Positions 50,473-58,818 of a DNA stretch of 64,000 bases are shown one piece after another. The position numbers and the translations under genes are program-made. How positions within the stretch are numbered: position 1 is the first letter of the stretch; each line of letters begins with the position of its first letter. Source of the stretch: Natrinema sp. HArc-T2 (lineage in GTDB: Archaea; Halobacteriota; Halobacteria; Halobacteriales; Natrialbaceae). The DNA lies in contig NZ_JBGUAZ010000004.1 of NCBI RefSeq assembly GCF_041821085.1, positions 248,001 to 312,000 on the forward strand, read 5' to 3'. A model generated the notes under the pieces. The model was not told where the DNA came from. It searched no databases and saw only the letters and a list, made by a program, of their open reading frames with translations.

Positions 50473-51657
50473 CTACAGCTGGTTCCAGATCTCCTCGTCG
50501 TCCTCGAAGCCGTCCGGATCGTCGGCAGCTGCGAACTCGTCGATCCCCTCGAGTTCAGAGACATCACCAGACGGTAACTCCCCATCAGTGTCCACGACAG
50601 TCGACTGACTTGTGAGGTCCATCTCGGGCCAGGCAGTCTCCTCCCAGAGTCCCCGGTCGGTGTAGTAGTAGATGACACCGTCGCTGAGGACCGCAAACAG
50701 GTCCCGTTGCTCGTCGTGGACGACCCGCTCGTTCGTATCGATCGCGACGTCGACGACGTCCTCGAGCGTATCGAGCGCGACGTGATAATCGCCGATCCAC
50801 ATCGGGATCGACCCCCGTGAGATCCACTCGGCGTAACGCTGTTCGTGGACCGCCCGGCGGGCGGCGTCGATGTCTGCGGGCGACCGGCGGGTGACGAACA
50901 CTGCACCGGCGAGTGCGAGCGTCCCGAGCACTGACAGCCCACCGATCAGTACCGGACTCCGGGCCTCGGTCGTCCGAGTAAGTCCGCTTTGATGGCTGTG
51001 AGTTGCCGAATCCGACAGTGACCCGTCGAGCCAGTAGGCCTCCTCCGTGATCGTCACCGGTGCTGTCGTCGTTATCGTCCCCTGATGGTGACCGGTATCG
51101 TACTCAGTGCGAACCTCCATCGTCAACTCGACCGAGCCGACGCCAGCGACCTCGCGCTCGAGTTGTCGCTGTCGCTGGCGGAGGGATTCGATATCGATCG
51201 TCGCGTTCGACGTCGCGACGCCGTTGTCGACCGACGGCGACTCGCGCAACACGGGCCGTGTCTCGTTCCAGAACGACTCGCCGTTGCGGGTCGCTTCGAA
51301 CCGAAGTAACAGCTCGTGGGTAACGTCACCGTCCTCGATAGGCGTCCCCCCGGTCGCGTTTTGCACCCTCGTCTCGGGCTGGACCGTTAGCTCCGGTGAC
51401 TCGTTGAGCAGATAGACCGAACTATCGGTGAGCCGGTCGCCTTCCGTCCAGAGCGTGCTGTTTTGGGTAACGACGGCACTCGTCCCGACGTCAGCCGTGA
51501 CGCGTTCCTCATCGAACTGCGGTGTCGTCGTCGTGACCGGGTTCGCGACGGCCCAGCCGGTCGCAGCGATCGAGAGAACACCGACGACAGCCAGCACGAT
51601 CGCGATCTCCCGCCCGGATCTGGCAAGCACCAACTCGAGTCGTGGACTGTCGATCAT
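50473..51657 (-). CDS. DUF5305-type membrane protein
   Basis: A 394-residue protein. A transmembrane helix is near residues 17-40 (REIAIVLAVVGVLSIAATGWA), followed by a large extracellular domain (ELTVQPETRVQNATGG, VGSVELTMEVRTEYDTG, GTITTTAPVTITEEAYW), a second helix (SPVLIGGLSVLGTLALAGAV) and a cytoplasmic domain with a helical GDYHVALDTLEDVVDVAIDT region. DUF5305 genes commonly sit beside archaeal SipW-type signal peptidases, as here (the next gene). Probable partner in export or assembly of the DUF1102 proteins. Confidence 0.8.
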   Translation of the reverse strand: MIDSPRLELVLARSGREIAIVLAVVGVLSIAATGWAVANPVTTTTPQFDEERVTADVGTSAVVTQNSTLWTEGDRLTDSSVYLLNESPELTVQPETRVQNATGGTPIEDGDVTHELLLRFEATRNGESFWNETRPVLRESPSVDNGVATSNATIDIESLRQRQRQLEREVAGVGSVELTMEVRTEYDTGHHQGTITTTAPVTITEEAYWLDGSLSDSATHSHQSGLTRTTEARSPVLIGGLSVLGTLALAGAVFVTRRSPADIDAARRAVHEQRYAEWISRGSIPMWIGDYHVALDTLEDVVDVAIDTNERVVHDEQRDLFAVLSDGVIYYYTDRGLWEETAWPEMDLTSQSTVVDTDGELPSGDVSELEGIDEFAAADDPDGFEDDEEIWNQL

Positions 51658-51808
51658 CCGTCGTCCCTCCCGTCCCTGTCTCCCCCGGTCCGGGCTCGTC
51701 GGTCGAACCCGCCCGCTGGCCGACCGGTTCGGTTTCGAACTGGTCGGTCATCGGGACAATACATACGTCAACCGAAGTAATCGACCATCATAAGAATAGT
51801 GGCTCGAG

Positions 51809-52990
51809 CTACTCTCGGTTGCGAAGCCACGCGCGAAGCCGTCGCTCGAGCCGTGTCGAGAGCGGGACGTGATCGGCCCCGGATCGAACGCGAAGGTCGC
51901 CGCTACCGAACAGCAGGAGAATAAGGACGACGGTGAGCCCGACGATAACGCCGTTGACCGCTCCGATCGCAACGAACGGATGCACACCGTGGAGCCAGAC
52001 CAGCAGCGACGGTGGCAGGACGGCGAGATACCGGTACTCGCCGAGGTGGCGCGTGTACTCTCCAGTTTCAGCGGGTGCAGACAGTCGAACCGTCGTCTCA
52101 CCGCTCCCGCGGATGCCGATCGTCTGCCACCCCGGATCGGCCCTGACCCCGTTGCTTTCGGCCTCGTGGACGACGACCACCGGCAGGTAGCCGGCGTTGT
52201 CGACCGACCGCGTGAGTTCGGTCGTCACCCCCGGCGCGACGATCTGCGGATCGTCGGTCGGTGACTCGGTGCTGACGAGTCCGTACTCGTAGGTCCCCGA
52301 CGGGACGACCATCGCCGCAGTCGCGAACGTAACGAACACGAGCAACACCAGCCCGAGCGTGGTCCAGAACGCGATCACGTTCTCGCGCGAGCGGCGTCTG
52401 GTCGTCTCGCGTCGCGCGGGCCCGAGTCGCTCGAGCAGCGTCCCAAAGCCGAGCATGGCGACGCCGATGGCGACGAGCATGGCACCGGTGCCGTTGCTCG
52501 AGCCGGTCGTCGTCAACCCAAGGATCGAGGCACCAGTTTCGACGGCCCCTTGCACGAGCCCCTGGATTCCCATGATCGCCGTTCCGAGGAACGGAATCGT
52601 TACCACTTCGCCGTTTATCTGCAACGCTTCGGCGACGATCTGGCCGTCGCTGACCGGCGGCTCGCCGCCGTCCTGGTCGGTAAACGGGTTCGCATCGCCT
52701 TTCGTAACGTATCCACCTTCGGTCTCGCCAACCACGCGGTGGGTCGTCAGCCCGCCGCTATGGAGCTCTCTGGCCTGGAAGACGACGACATCACCGTCCT
52801 CGACGTCGCCGGTGACAGCAGTTGGGATTGCGACGAACCCGTCGCCAGCGTCCATCGTGGGCTCCATGCTCCCGGTGGCGACGTAGCCGAGCAGGATCGG
52901 CTGGCCGAGCAGTTGTCCGACGAGTAGCAAGACGACGACCAACGCGAGGGCGTACCCGAGCCCTCGCTTGAGGAGTGTACCAGCAGTCAT
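51809..52990 (-). CDS. Archaeal signal peptidase I (S26B, SipW-like)
   Basis: A 393-residue S26B enzyme. The catalytic Ser41 is in ATGSMEPTM, His84 in LTTHRVVG and Asp99 in VTKGDANPFTDQ, the Ser-His-Asp arrangement of ER/archaeal/SipW-type enzymes rather than Ser-Lys. The signal-peptidase core is followed by a roughly 200-residue beta-rich extension (TFATAAMVVPSGTYEYGL, ETTVRLSAPAETGEYTRHL) and two helices. The unusual length and the neighbours suggest a dedicated processing enzyme for the DUF1102-type substrates, as SipW processes TasA. Confidence 0.9.
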   Translation of the reverse strand: MTAGTLLKRGLGYALALVVVLLLVGQLLGQPILLGYVATGSMEPTMDAGDGFVAIPTAVTGDVEDGDVVVFQARELHSGGLTTHRVVGETEGGYVTKGDANPFTDQDGGEPPVSDGQIVAEALQINGEVVTIPFLGTAIMGIQGLVQGAVETGASILGLTTTGSSNGTGAMLVAIGVAMLGFGTLLERLGPARRETTRRRSRENVIAFWTTLGLVLLVFVTFATAAMVVPSGTYEYGLVSTESPTDDPQIVAPGVTTELTRSVDNAGYLPVVVVHEAESNGVRADPGWQTIGIRGSGETTVRLSAPAETGEYTRHLGEYRYLAVLPPSLLVWLHGVHPFVAIGAVNGVIVGLTVVLILLLFGSGDLRVRSGADHVPLSTRLERRLRAWLRNRE

Positions 52991-53107
52991 CGACGAGTTG
53001 CGAGGACGGTCATGGATAGCTGACTGTTCGACTGTACGAACGTTCTGTGGCAGTATAAAGTCCGCGAGAGGTGCGAGAGTTCAGTGAGATGCGACTCCGA
53101 GCCGCGA

Positions 53108-54250
53108 TTAGCGAACGATCGCCCACCGGCGGTTCGCCGACACCGCCAAGAACAACAGCCCCGCCGTCGCCGGCGGTGCAAGCGCTGCCGTCGTCACCGC
53201 CGCGAGTTCGCGGTTCTGCAGTGTACCCACCGCTGGCTCCGCGACCGATACCTCGCCCGCGGGGACGCCGCTGACTGCGATTTCGTAGGTCCCCGGTGTC
53301 GCGAACTCCCGCTCGAATGTCACCGTCCGCTCGCTGTTCGCCGGAATCGAGACGGCCCGGCTGTCGACGACGATGCCGTCGACCGCTACCTCGAGCGTCC
53401 GATCGACCCCCCTGTCGGTCGGATTCGTGACTGTCGCCCGAACGGTGGTCGCGTCGCCTGTGGTGACCGTTGTGCTATCGACACTAGCGTTGACGACGTC
53501 GATCGGCGGCCCCCCGACGGTCACCGACTGGCTGCCTGCTCCCGTGATTCCCACCTCGTACGTGCCGGGCCAGTACATCGTGCGTTCGAACGTGACCGTT
53601 CGTTCTTCCCCCGGCTCGAGGTCGATCGTGCGCTGATCGACGACGGTTCCGTCGACGGTGAGCTGTGCTGTGGTCTCGCCCGACGCGTCACCGAAGTTGC
53701 GATAGGTCGCGGTCGCCGTGATCGTGTCTCCAGTCTCGAGCGTCGTCGACGAGACGTTCAGGTCCGAACGTTCGATCTCCGGCGATGGGTCGTGGTCTTC
53801 CTCGTCGTCGTATTGTACAGTGAGCGTGAACGTCTCCGTTCCTCCCTGTGCGACGTTGGTATCGACGGCAACGCCGATGTGTTCGGTGTCGCCGGCGGCG
53901 GGGTCGAGTGGATTCGAACTGGTGATCGTGTTGGTTGGATCGTCCCCTTCGTAGAACGTGAGCCCGCTGACGTTGTGCTCGATCCAGACTCGTTCGACGG
54001 TCTCGTTGGTGACCGTGATCGTGAAGACATCGTCCGCGCGTGTGATCGCGCGGTCGTTGAGTTTCTCGAGGTTTAGCTCGAGTTGGCCGTCCTCGATCGC
54101 GGCGTAGTCGCCGTTCGGTGAGGAAGACTCGAGTATAATCCCGCCGGAGGTATCGTCCTTGAGGGTCATAGCAGCAGTCGATACTGCAAGAACGGTAGTG
54201 AGGAGAAGGGCGACGGCGAGTAATAATACTCTATTTCTATTGGGGGACAT
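53108..54250 (-). CDS. Exported CARDB-repeat protein
   Basis: A 380-residue protein with a signal peptide (RVLLLAVALLLTTVLAVSTA). The N-terminal domain (about 30-150) is beta-rich and TasA/DUF1102-like (ITRADDVFTITVTNETVERV). Two CARDB-type Ig repeats follow: SDLNVSSTTLETGDTITATA to SQSVTVGG, and NASVDSTTVTTGDATTVRAT to GEVSVAEP. A C-terminal helix (VTTAALAPPATAGLLFLAVSAN) anchors it. It starts 93 bases from the DUF1102 gene on the same strand, and probably belongs to the same surface assembly. Confidence 0.82.
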   Translation of the reverse strand: MSPNRNRVLLLAVALLLTTVLAVSTAAMTLKDDTSGGIILESSSPNGDYAAIEDGQLELNLEKLNDRAITRADDVFTITVTNETVERVWIEHNVSGLTFYEGDDPTNTITSSNPLDPAAGDTEHIGVAVDTNVAQGGTETFTLTVQYDDEEDHDPSPEIERSDLNVSSTTLETGDTITATATYRNFGDASGETTAQLTVDGTVVDQRTIDLEPGEERTVTFERTMYWPGTYEVGITGAGSQSVTVGGPPIDVVNASVDSTTVTTGDATTVRATVTNPTDRGVDRTLEVAVDGIVVDSRAVSIPANSERTVTFEREFATPGTYEIAVSGVPAGEVSVAEPAVGTLQNRELAAVTTAALAPPATAGLLFLAVSANRRWAIVR

Positions 54251-54342
54251 AGTCGTTGACGCTATCGATATATTTTATTAACTAACAGCCAACAACAATC
54301 AAAAGGCATACCCCAGAAATGTGTGCCGCTATTGGCTATTCC

Positions 54343-54876
54343 TTATGAAGTTGATTCTGCAGCAACGATGGTAACATTCTCGATGCTGCTCGGGTCACCT
54401 TGATTCGTATCGATCTTGATGTCAACCACAAGTGTGGCAGACTGGTTACCGACTGTAACCGAATTACCGGACCCGACAATGGAATTTCCATCAGTACCAG
54501 AGATACCGTCCGATTCCGAACTATACTGGAAGTCGATCACCGATCTGTTGACTGGATCTTCGTTTTTGATGTAAACTTCCTTGTTTCCATCATTTGCGTT
54601 GTTTTCGATGGTAAGCGCACCATTCACAGTAGTGGTGGCGTTATCATTCAGACTGTTAAATCCAAACGTGATAATGTCCTCTCCGGCTGCTCCCTGATCA
54701 TCCTTAACAACATACTCACCATCTCCAGTCAGATTGAGATAGCCATTACTATCGCCATTGACCACGAATTCGGCGTCACGGTCCGCGGTCACCTGAGTAA
54801 ACGCGCCCGACGCGATCACCACACCACCCATCATAACCACCATACCGAGCGTCATCAGCACTTTTTTTCTGTTCAT
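54343..54876 (-). CDS. DUF1102 exported protein (TasA/camelysin-like)
   Basis: A 177-residue protein with a SipW-type signal: NRKKVLMTLGMVVMMGGVVI, then ASGAFTQVTADRDAEF, which resembles the camelysin/TasA/DUF1102 cleavage region ...GAF-x-x-V-x-A-x-R-x-x-V. The mature part is beta-rich (GYLNLTGDGEYVVKDDQ, SATLVVDIKIDTNQGDPSS). It is likely cleaved by the signal peptidase at 51809. The gene is notably AT-rich for this genome. TasA-like proteins form donor-strand surface fibres; fibre formation here is inference. Confidence 0.83.
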   Translation of the reverse strand: MNRKKVLMTLGMVVMMGGVVIASGAFTQVTADRDAEFVVNGDSNGYLNLTGDGEYVVKDDQGAAGEDIITFGFNSLNDNATTTVNGALTIENNANDGNKEVYIKNEDPVNRSVIDFQYSSESDGISGTDGNSIVGSGNSVTVGNQSATLVVDIKIDTNQGDPSSIENVTIVAAESTS

Positions 54877-55137
54877 TGTTATTTTGTCAGTTGGTATTTG
54901 GCACCGGAATCGTAGGTATCGATTACCGGGCCATCTCTATTCCGTCGTAGGGACGGTATCCACTTTGTATTGAGTATCCAGAATAGCTGAAAGATTGGCT
55001 ATACTGACGTTCAAGGTTTTCCTGAACATTGTCACGACCATCTCGAACAGTACGCATTGACCCAAGAACTTCCCAGACAACAGTACTCGGCAGCAAGTCT
55101 TATCTATCAACAGTTCGAATATTCATGCGAAAGGGGG
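54877..55137. promoter_or_regulatory. AT-rich divergent promoter region
   Basis: About 260 bases, without a gene, between the minus-strand DUF1102 gene and the plus-strand winged-helix/DUF1102 pair. It contains TATA-like sequences for both directions (GTCTTATCTATC near 55098 for the plus genes), so the two DUF1102 units could share control. Confidence 0.4.
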
Positions 55138-55710
55138 ATGGCGACGACCAGTGAAAGCAAAGCGGCTACATCGAAGACTGCAGGTCAGGGCGAAGAGTCG
55201 CGACAAGGCGAGATTTTCGACCTACTGAGCAATCAGCGCCGTCGCTACGCCATTCACTACTGCAAGCGCGAGGACGACCCCGTCACGCTCAGCGACCTCG
55301 CCGAACACGTCGCTGCCTGGGAACTCAACAAAGAGGTCGAGGAAATTACCTCCACCGAGCGAAAGCGCGTCTACACCTCACTTCAGCAGAGCCATCTGCC
55401 GACACTCGAGCGCGCCAATGTAATCGAGTTCGACGACCGCACGATCGAACTCACCGACGAGGCTGCCGAACTCGAGGTCTATCTCGACGTCGTACCCGGC
55501 GATTCGATCCCGTGGGGCGTCTATTATCTGGGGCTAACGGTGATCGGCTCGGTTGTGATGGCTGGGTTGTGGCTCGAAATCGTACCGACCGATATAATTC
55601 CGGAACTCGGCTGGGCGACATTAGTATTTGGTCTATTTGCCGTTTCGGCTATCGTGCACGTGGTACAGAACCGGCGGATGCGACTCGGTGAAATGGAGCG
55701 ACCACCATGA
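55138..55710 (+). CDS. Membrane winged-helix regulator (DUF7344-type)
   Basis: A 190-residue protein. Residues 25-110 are a winged helix (EIFDLLSNQRRRYAIHYCKR, VTLSDLAEHVAAWELNKE, ERKRVYTSLQQSHLPTLERA), the DUF7344 pattern. Two C-terminal helices follow (PWGVYYLGLTVIGSVVMAGL, LGWATLVFGLFAVSAIVHVV). The stop codon overlaps the next ATG (TGA at 55708), so the DUF1102 protein is translationally coupled. It may sense envelope state and control its neighbours. Confidence 0.82.
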   Translation: MATTSESKAATSKTAGQGEESRQGEIFDLLSNQRRRYAIHYCKREDDPVTLSDLAEHVAAWELNKEVEEITSTERKRVYTSLQQSHLPTLERANVIEFDDRTIELTDEAAELEVYLDVVPGDSIPWGVYYLGLTVIGSVVMAGLWLEIVPTDIIPELGWATLVFGLFAVSAIVHVVQNRRMRLGEMERPP

Positions 55711-56585
55711 AGGTGATCAAGAATCTGGCGCTTGTGTTCATTGTAGTAGGAGCGGTGTTGCTGGGTGGGCCAGTATTTGGCTTCAGTTCGTTTGCTGCCG
55801 ACCGAGATGCGGATGTTAACGTTGCAGATGATACGTCGGCATATCTCGGCATCTTCGACAATTCACCGAACCAAAGCGCAGATGTAATTTCAAAGAATGG
55901 TGGGGAGGGAACAGTCTACTATCTCGATGACAACACTGGCACCTTTGATGCTGCAGCTATCGACGCGGAGGTCATCGAATTTTCTGGGAGTTCGACAGGT
56001 CTTGTTGCACAGGTTGATACCACGGATACCACCCATGATTTCGCTGTGGGAGTCTCATGTGGAACTTCGGATCTAAAAGATACTGGGAACGTGACCATTC
56101 ATCTGAACGCGAGCGACAATCCTACGATTGATCTTGAAAGAACGACGAGTAGCCAGATTGAGGTAGACTGTAAAGGCAAAAGCAGTGCCCTCTTTGAGGT
56201 AACGAGTGCAGCGTCGACAGGAGACAATAATAATACCGCTGTGATAGACATCAAGAACAACGGTGCCGCAGAGACCGTGAAGGGTATCAGCATCGATAGC
56301 ACTAGCTCGAGCGCTGACACAGTCAACAACGGAAATAATCCAGAGATCATTATTGGCAACAGTAACGTAAACAGGAACAAGAAAAACAAAAACAAGATCC
56401 TTATCGATGGAACGGAGTACAAAGTCAAAGGGGGAGAGGACATTGCCAGCGGAGAGACGGTACAAATAACGATTAGCGAATTTAGAGATGGCACCAGTAC
56501 CGTCGAGATGAGCGGAAAAACGGTCGAATTTAGTCTGTATAGCAGTAATAGTAAAATACAGACGATACAAACTACTCTCTCATAA
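55707..56585 (+). CDS. DUF1102 exported protein, Lys/Asn-rich
   Basis: A 292-residue paralogue of the gene at 54343. The N-terminus has a hydrophobic segment (LALVFIVVGAVLLGGPVFGF) and the same ADRDADVNVADDTSAYLGI motif. A middle block has Cys residues (SCGTSDLKD, DCKGKSSALF). The C-terminal third is unusually Asn/Lys-rich (NVNRNKKNKNKILIDGTEYK), contrary to the acidic, Lys-poor norm of haloarchaea, and the gene is AT-rich, which hints at transfer or fast surface evolution. Coupled to the winged-helix gene. Probable substrate of the SipW-like peptidase. Confidence 0.78.
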   Translation: MKVIKNLALVFIVVGAVLLGGPVFGFSSFAADRDADVNVADDTSAYLGIFDNSPNQSADVISKNGGEGTVYYLDDNTGTFDAAAIDAEVIEFSGSSTGLVAQVDTTDTTHDFAVGVSCGTSDLKDTGNVTIHLNASDNPTIDLERTTSSQIEVDCKGKSSALFEVTSAASTGDNNNTAVIDIKNNGAAETVKGISIDSTSSSADTVNNGNNPEIIIGNSNVNRNKKNKNKILIDGTEYKVKGGEDIASGETVQITISEFRDGTSTVEMSGKTVEFSLYSSNSKIQTIQTTLS

Positions 56586-56687
56586 TCGTGCTACTAACGG
56601 CGACTCAAAAATAGTCTCCATTTCGGTTGATAGTGAGCCGTCATCCAATGCGAACGCCTTTTTAGCCCTGCTCCCGGATTTTGCTCC

Positions 56688-57002
56688 ATGTCGACCGAAT
56701 CGATCAGCGACCGGCGCGAACACATCCGCTCGGTGGGCGTGACGGCGTTGTCCGCGCTGCTGGGTGTCGCCGCGGCGCTGGCCTCTGCGGCCTGGGTTGG
56801 GGTCTCCGAGGCAGCCGCCCAGAACACGCAGGCGCTCGCGTTCGTCCTCGGCGCGATCTTCGTCCAGTACGTTCTCATCAACGCTGCAGGGATCTACGAG
56901 GAAGACGAGTTCGGGACGAAACACTACCTGTTCGTCGCGTTCATGACCTTCGCGCTGTGGTTTGTCACGTGGGGCATCCTGCTGACTGCGGAGGCGTCCT
57001 AA
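56688..57002 (+). CDS. EMC6-like membrane protein
   Basis: A 104-residue protein with three helices: VGVTALSALLGVAAALASAA, ALAFVLGAIFVQYVLINAAG and HYLFVAFMTFALWFVTWGIL, matching the archaeal EMC6-like family, related to a core subunit of the eukaryotic ER membrane protein complex. A CTTTTTAGCC promoter box lies about 26 bases before the ATG, so the mRNA is nearly leaderless. It is separated by 1 base from the ABCE1 gene, and the two are probably co-transcribed. Confidence 0.8.
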   Translation: MSTESISDRREHIRSVGVTALSALLGVAAALASAAWVGVSEAAAQNTQALAFVLGAIFVQYVLINAAGIYEEDEFGTKHYLFVAFMTFALWFVTWGILLTAEAS

Positions 57003-57003
57003 G

Positions 57004-58818
57004 ATGGCAGACGACAGCATCGCCGTCGTAGACCTAGACCGGTGTCAGCCCGACCGGTGTAGCTACGAGTGCAAGAACTACTGTCCGCCGAATCGCACCG
57101 GCAAGGAGTGTATCACCCTCCGCGGCGAGGAAACTGACGAGGGCCAACCCGAGCAGATCCACATCTCCGAAGAGATCTGTCTGGGCGAAACCTGCGGGAT
57201 CTGCGTCGAGAAATGTCCGTTCGATGCGATCGAGATCATCAACCTCCCGAAGGAGCTCCAGGACGATCCGGCCCACCGCTACGGCGAGAACGCTTTCTCG
57301 CTATACGGGCTGCCCGCACCACAGGACGGGCAGGTGACCGGCATTCTGGGCCCCAACGGAATCGGGAAGACGACCGCCGTCCGCATTCTGGCCGGCGAAC
57401 TCGAGCCAAACCTTGGCCGCCACGAAGAAGAGCCGGGGTGGGACGAGGTGCTCGAGGCCTACCGCGGGACCGAGCTCCAGGATTACATCGCGGATGTCCG
57501 CGACGGCGACGTCACAATCGCGCGAAAGCCCCAGTACGTCGACCAGATTCCCAATAGCTTCGATGGCAACACCCGCGAACTGCTCGAGCGGACCAACGAA
57601 CGCGGTGCACTCGACTCGCTCGTCGAGCGGCTCTCGATCGGCCCGGTCATGGACCAGTCGATCGACGACCTCTCGGGTGGCGAACTCCAGCGAGTCGCCA
57701 TCGCGGCCACACTCGCTCGTGATACGGACTTCTACTTCTTAGACGAGATCACGCCCTATCTGGACATCGGCCAGCGCGTGACGGCGGCGCGGCTGATCCG
57801 CGAACTCGCCGAGGAGGAGGACAAATCGATGCTCGTCATCGAACACGACCTCGCGATCCTGGATCTGCTCGCCGATACGCTCCACGTCGCCTACGGTGAG
57901 CCCGGGGCCTACGGTGTCATCACCTCGCCGAAATCCGTCCGCAACGGGATCAACGAGTACCTCTCGGGGTATCTCGACAACGAGAACATGCGGATCCGGC
58001 CGAACCCCATCGAGTTCGAGGAACACGCACCGCGAACGGCGACCGCCGCCGACGCGCTCGTGGAGTACCCCGACCTCACCAAGAGCTACGGCGACGGCGA
58101 GTTCACTCTCGAGGTCGAGGGCGGGACGATCCGCGAAAACGAAGTGCTCGGTATCGTCGGTCCCAACGGGATCGGGAAGTCGACGTTCGCGAAGCTGTTG
58201 ACAGGCAATCTCGAACCCGACGAGGGCGATGCCGATCTCGACCTCGATATTTCCTACAAGCCCCAGTACGTCACTATCGACCAGCACATGCGGGTCGACG
58301 CCTTCCTGTCCTCGATTACCGACCAGTTCGGCTCGTCGTACTGGAACACCGAGATCGCCCAGCCGCTGCAACTCGAGCGGATCATGGAGCAGAACCTCTC
58401 GGATCTCTCCGGCGGTGAGCGCCAGCGGGTCGCCATCGCGGCCTGTCTCTCCGACTCGGCGGACCTCTACCTGCTCGACGAACCCTCGGCGCATCTGGAC
58501 GTCGAACAGCGCGTGCAGGCGACCAGCGCGATCCGACGATACGCCGAACAGCAGGACGCCACCGTGCTAGTCATCGACCACGACATCTACATGATGGACC
58601 TGCTCGCCGACCGGCTGATGGTCTTCGACGGCGAACCCGCCGTCCACGGTCGCGCCGGCCAACCCCAGCCGATGCGCGACGGCATGAACGAGTTCCTCGC
58701 GAACCTCGAGGTCACGTTCCGTCGGGACGAGCGCACCTCGCGCCCGCGGATCAACAAGCCCGAGTCCCAGCTGGATCGCCAGCAGAAAAGCGAAGGCGAG
58801 TACTACTACGCGCCGTAG
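57004..58818 (+). CDS. Ribosome recycling factor ABCE1 (Rli1)
   Basis: A 604-residue ABCE1. The N-terminal domain has the two [4Fe-4S] sites: CQPDRCSYECKNYCPP and CLGETCGICVEKCPF. NBD1 has Walker A GPNGIGKT, signature LSGGE and Walker B FYFLDEITPYLD, which keeps the catalytic Glu but replaces the usual EPSSYLD by EITPYLD. NBD2 has GPNGIGKS, LSGGE and YLLDEPSAHLD. It splits 70S-type ribosomes after termination. The C-terminus ends GEYYYAP. Immediately follows the EMC6-like gene. Confidence 0.97.
   Translation: MADDSIAVVDLDRCQPDRCSYECKNYCPPNRTGKECITLRGEETDEGQPEQIHISEEICLGETCGICVEKCPFDAIEIINLPKELQDDPAHRYGENAFSLYGLPAPQDGQVTGILGPNGIGKTTAVRILAGELEPNLGRHEEEPGWDEVLEAYRGTELQDYIADVRDGDVTIARKPQYVDQIPNSFDGNTRELLERTNERGALDSLVERLSIGPVMDQSIDDLSGGELQRVAIAATLARDTDFYFLDEITPYLDIGQRVTAARLIRELAEEEDKSMLVIEHDLAILDLLADTLHVAYGEPGAYGVITSPKSVRNGINEYLSGYLDNENMRIRPNPIEFEEHAPRTATAADALVEYPDLTKSYGDGEFTLEVEGGTIRENEVLGIVGPNGIGKSTFAKLLTGNLEPDEGDADLDLDISYKPQYVTIDQHMRVDAFLSSITDQFGSSYWNTEIAQPLQLERIMEQNLSDLSGGERQRVAIAACLSDSADLYLLDEPSAHLDVEQRVQATSAIRRYAEQQDATVLVIDHDIYMMDLLADRLMVFDGEPAVHGRAGQPQPMRDGMNEFLANLEVTFRRDERTSRPRINKPESQLDRQQKSEGEYYYAP

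Follow-up and report, generated by a model that had tools for sequence, protein, structure and literature searches.

A probable variant of the Taf-type pilus locus in the haloarchaeon Natrinema sp. HArc-T2, with a predicted change in the export route of its pilins

A group of six genes in Natrinema sp. HArc-T2 raises the question of what a haloarchaeon would assemble with two secreted proteins, several membrane proteins and a signal peptidase encoded beside them. The genes lie in a 64-kb window, the whole stretch of DNA that was analysed, and the initial annotation proposed that they form an undescribed surface-fibre module. All six ORFs are intact. On the reverse strand are the genes for a DUF5305 protein, presumably an accessory membrane protein (50473..51657; Pfam PF17231, 3.8e-50; TM segments near residues 9-39 and 234-256), an S26B-type signal peptidase, a CARDB protein and the secreted protein P0004. 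A divergent intergenic region of 261 bases (54877..55137), where the promoters in both directions presumably lie, separates these from a forward-strand pair that encodes a DUF7344 winged-helix protein with C-terminal TM segments (55138..55710; Pfam PF24035, 8.1e-30) and the second secreted protein, P0006. The presumed regulator is taken to start at ATG 55138 rather than TTG 55057 because its orthologues begin MATTSES, and its gene shares four bases, ATGA, with that of P0006. The gene content given initially was thus borne out, including a membrane winged-helix regulator coupled to one of the secreted proteins. PHROGs gave a single significant match, between a family of unknown function and the CARDB protein. 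Downstream, a small ORF for a membrane protein (56681-57002), which we take to be possibly EMC6-like, directly precedes the ABCE1 gene (57004-58818).

This combination of genes is found again in most of 80 named haloarchaeal loci, usually with a regulator and a TafC-type gene divergent from genes for TafE, CARDB, peptidase and DUF5305, an association far beyond chance. The DUF5305 gene adjoins the peptidase gene in most relatives, and NadE and/or ABCE1 neighbour the taf-type loci in nearly 30 Natrialbaceae loci. The names TafE and TafC are those of NCBIfam models and belong to the Tat-fimbriae (Taf/tafi) reported by Galeva et al. (2025, iScience), as cited in PMC12687288. We consider it quite likely that the locus of the window is a divergent, tafi-like member of this Taf type, that is, a variant of a known system.

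The protein most directly tied to a solved structure is P0004 (54343..54876, reverse strand; 177 aa, no cysteine). It matches the NCBIfam TafE model at 4.7e-26 and 91.6 bits, below the cut-off of 155 bits, and the solved tafi pilin itself scores 77.3 bits. The DUF1102 (TasA/camelysin-like) label attached initially to both secreted proteins did not hold, in that Pfam gave no match for P0004, P0006 or 76 aligned family members. A profile of CARDB-adjacent pilins does match one PDB chain, 9p0a_C ('Pilin', 1.7e-40), and the Natrinema gari protein that is orthologous to P0004 by position agrees with 9p0a in 215 of 215 residues; VIA-align lists that entry as 'Structure of Natrinema sp. J7-2 Tafi pilus'. 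For the predicted model of P0004 (pLDDT 79.8), too, the top VIA-align match is 9p0a_C (Z 10.2, rmsd 2.2, 115 residues), with the Pyrobaculum bundling pilus (7ueg) second at Z 8.7 (119 residues, 13% identity). The Foldseek search by itself gave nothing below 1e-3, and its best match (2.4e-3) was again 7ueg. The matches to the Sulfolobus thread and FimA-type pilins, with Z about 6.5, are interspersed with unrelated beta domains that score about as high, and they count for nothing by themselves. The predicted fold of P0004 is therefore like that of the solved haloarchaeal tafi pilus and of the Pyrobaculum bundling pilus. This agrees with the notion of a surface-fibre module that has its own ER/archaeal-type signal peptidase. 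The comparison with TasA folds that had been called for came out only in part: the TasA-related Pyrobaculum pilus is matched, and TasA itself is absent among the matches listed, which does not exclude it.

The solved chain of 9p0a covers 188 of the 215 residues, as would be expected if a signal of about 27 residues had been cut off. P0004 carries a donor-strand-like motif, AFTQVTADR (residues 25-33; 54778..54804, reverse strand), in which A25, F26, V29, A31 and R33 are invariant in 49 sequences of the TafE family. The general form of the motif, GAF..V.ADR, is present in 93 of 106 TafE, 67 of 79 TafC and 2 of 31 CARDB proteins, with a background of 277 in 2310. We propose P0004 as the shaft subunit.

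P0006 (55707..56585, forward strand; 292 aa) matches the NCBIfam TafC model at 7.4e-5 with 22 bits, below the cut-off of 410. Its N-terminal domain is pilin-like, and hhalign relates TafC to TafE at 96.8% (E 4e-10). The structural model is confident only to about residue 155, and the best matches found with it, weak as it is beyond that residue, were generic Ig-like domains with Z of 8 or less. P0006 has its own donor-strand-like motif, GFSSFAADR (residues 25-33; 55779..55805, forward strand). The presence of this motif ahead of a variable C-terminus would suit a terminal or minor subunit. Cysteines at residues 118 and 155 (56058-56060 and 56169-56171) are invariant in 27 TafC-type proteins, which suggests a disulfide. 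The Pfam bactofilin model is matched by 11 of 27 TafC-type secreted proteins (best 5.5e-24), among them L104:5730-6557:- and L106:5671-6552:-, and not by P0006; the matching relatives apparently have a secreted beta-solenoid behind the pilin-like domain.

The CARDB protein (53108..54250, reverse strand; Pfam CARDB 3.5e-12) consists of a signal, a pilin-like domain, CARDB repeats and a C-terminal TM helix (352-370). The pilin-like domain, at about residues 33-151 (53798..54154, reverse strand), was found in addition to what had been annotated. It aligns with TafE in hhalign at 98.7% (E 1.3e-15); none of 60 column shuffles exceeded 0.3%, and the reversed control reached 0.4%. The CARDB protein thus has both a pilin-like domain and a membrane anchor but lacks the N-terminal donor motif, and for this reason it may be the membrane-anchored acceptor at the base of the fibre. 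Very long CARDB-type proteins of 1000-1300 aa occur inside or beside the taf locus of some relatives (L087 10759-14760, L092 8903-12223 and L086 6677-9751), and their first residues resemble the signal of archaeal type IV pilins (RGVSPVVGVVLLVAIVLIG).

The signal peptidase (51809..52990, reverse strand) passes the archaeal signal peptidase model TIGR02228 (1.3e-15, 57.6 bits against a cut-off of 51.85), and its long C-terminal extension, also seen in the initial annotation, amounts to about 230 extra residues, which include additional TM segments flanking an extracellular region. Residues S41, H84, D99 and D105, which we take to be catalytic by analogy with archaeal S26B enzymes, are invariant in 13 relatives. 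The archaeal model together with the conserved Ser, His and Asp residues places the protein in S26B, the catalytic roles being assigned by that analogy. The SipW model scores lower (6.6e-9, 35.6 bits, cut-off 190). A further pilin-like domain was sought in the extension and rejected, with hhalign values of 0.1-0.7% only.

The reading that best joins these components is a fibre built by strand exchange. The precursors of P0004 and P0006 would cross the membrane, in this lineage probably by Sec rather than Tat, and would then be cut beside the GAF..V.ADR motif, for which the peptidase of the locus is the likeliest enzyme. The freed N-terminus would be donated to a neighbouring subunit as the strand that completes its beta-sandwich. 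The shaft would consist of P0004, with P0006 as a terminal or minor subunit, and the CARDB protein, through its acceptor domain and C-terminal TM helix, would hold the fibre base at the membrane. The DUF7344 protein may act as a membrane-bound regulator. What the analysis establishes is the gene content, the conservation of the locus, the homologies, the fold predicted for P0004 and the differences between signal peptides, from which cleavage, strand exchange, the roles of the subunits, regulation and the export route are inferred. Part of this scheme is drawn by analogy with Bacillus subtilis: F26 and V29 of TafE can presumably be aligned onto F29 and I32 of TasA, and the hydrophobic positions of the TafE motif resemble those of the TasA donor strand. 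Both systems have a dedicated peptidase of the ER/archaeal type and a Phe just after the likely cut. In TasA, an N-terminal strand of residues 28-38 (F29, I32, F39) enters the next subunit to form fibres (PMC9674648), and cleavage by the ER-type SipW leaves Phe at P2' (PMC10269814). There are also differences from the TasA/SipW/TapA system: the peptidase of the locus is far below the SipW cut-off and has the extra extension, a CARDB anchor stands in place of TapA, and TasA is not among the best fold matches of the P0004 model.

The signals of the two subunits start MNRKKV (P0004) and MKVIKN (P0006), and neither is the twin-arginine signal of their relatives, a point that had not been annotated. 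Of the 55 loci used for comparison, 52 have twin arginines in the CARDB-adjacent pilin. Natrinema limicola, N. hispanicum DSM 18328 and Natribaculum breve have NRKN instead, and the window, with NRKK, adds a fourth case. The two kinds of signal differ in the hydropathy of their cores with no overlap: the mean is 1.77 and the maximum 2.28 in 97 RR signals, and the four RK signals fall at 2.31-2.67 (Mann-Whitney p 3.6e-4, which is only a guide with related sequences). On a tree of mature pilins (signal columns left out, 147 columns, quick search), the RK rows need two changes, forced by the starred branches. There is perhaps an even chance that the pilin has moved from Tat to Sec at least twice, in the window lineage and in that of N. 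hispanicum, N. limicola and Natribaculum breve, with the same peptidase and the same membrane-anchored, pilin-like CARDB base kept, so that one assembly could take up subunits that fold either within the cell or outside it. In most Natrialbaceae the TafC proteins are without RR, and in Haloferacaceae they have it; mixed signals within one locus are therefore common.

The pilus could also be as described with its RK pilin still a Tat substrate, the hydrophobic core offsetting the lost second arginine, and this we regard as a possibility worth keeping in mind, if somewhat short of even. Lysine and a hydrophobic core do occur together here, and in E. coli more hydrophobic cores act as suppressors that can rescue Tat export of signals with a broken twin arginine (PMC5539426, PMC7317946). 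However, two Tat substrates stayed unprocessed in Haloferax volcanii when tested in their KK forms (PMC2945643), lysine substitution is poorly tolerated, SRP or SecA would be expected to take such signals first in vivo, and the twin arginines are retained in nearly all the comparison loci just described. Because the Haloferax and E. coli work cuts both ways, we put the predicted switch of the window pilins from Tat to Sec somewhere between an even chance and fairly likely.

NCBIfam names TafE an adapter, and P0004 might accordingly be only that, with the shaft made from another pilin, for example one from a second taf-like locus of the same genome. This second locus (L008 4741-10309, at about 54.7-60.3 kb of contig C2) has a DUF7344 regulator with a short TafC-like gene, a peptidase, DUF5305 and two TafE-like genes, whose products carry true twin-arginine signals (MERRKF, MKRRQF); there is no adjacent CARDB gene. 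The gene at the position of P0004 in N. gari, however, encodes the very chain of the Tafi pilus structure, and the search of the HArc-T2 genome for TafA gave a best score of 33 bits against a cut-off of 190, with nothing over 1e-7, which makes the adapter role for P0004 unlikely. Among 195 genomes of the order, 14 have a TafA at 1e-20, which exceeds its cut-off in 11, and HArc-T2 is not one of the 14; the N. gari pilin that agrees with 9p0a throughout is likewise without a TafA-level score.

The peptidase of the window is closest to those of N. hispanicum and N. limicola (up to 86%), and its pilin is closest, at 47%, to that of an unclassified Halobacteriales MAG (L147), with which it clusters together with L173 (SH-aLRT 95). 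In Natribaculum breve it is the pilin that clusters with Natrinema, and the peptidase does not. Since pilin kinship does not follow peptidase kinship, the pilin gene seems to move between otherwise vertical loci and that of the window was probably swapped, on moderate evidence from few columns. The pilin genes of the window have a GC of 0.47, against about 0.64 around them. A recent foreign origin argued from low GC alone is weak, as the pilins of relatives are low too (mean 0.56, minimum 0.43). Divergence and low GC might also be taken as signs of a decaying or silent locus, but as the pilins of relatives are low in GC too, all six ORFs are intact, and motifs and catalytic residues are kept, decay is very improbable.

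The locus thus shares its content with tafi loci, namely the peptidase, CARDB, DUF5305, DUF7344 and two subunit genes, and its P0004 model has the fold of the solved tafi pilus; a TafA subunit and twin-arginine signals on the subunits are both lacking. The locus is not classed as strict Tat-fimbriae, since a search for the defining twin arginines in its subunits found none. With the Natrinema sp. J7-2 Tafi pilus and the N. gari JCM 14663 locus it has locus position, partner genes and pilin fold in common, but its pilin reaches only 24% identity where the two align and has RK where the 9p0a relative has RR. A canonical tafA neighbourhood (L083) contains DUF5305, CARDB, TafE, TafA, DUF7344, TafC and the peptidase; the window has all of these except TafA, but its TafC and TafE score below cut-off and its gene order differs. 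The Pyrobaculum bundling pilus is likened to it by the predicted pilin fold. That the genes make up a separate, undescribed matrix or pilus system, as first proposed, finds some backing in the lack of a Pfam family for the subunits and in Taf scores below cut-off but deserves almost no credence, being contradicted by components that match tafA loci and by positional orthology to the solved tafi pilin, in keeping with the NCBIfam names, the title of 9p0a and the cited report on Tat-fimbriae.

An orphan-looking haloarchaeal module is in this way placed in a known pilus system, and the role suggested for the CARDB protein is a new proposal. If the export switch is real, the closely related RR and RK loci within one genus constitute a natural experiment, and their comparison would address whether a strand-exchanging pilin must fold before it is exported.
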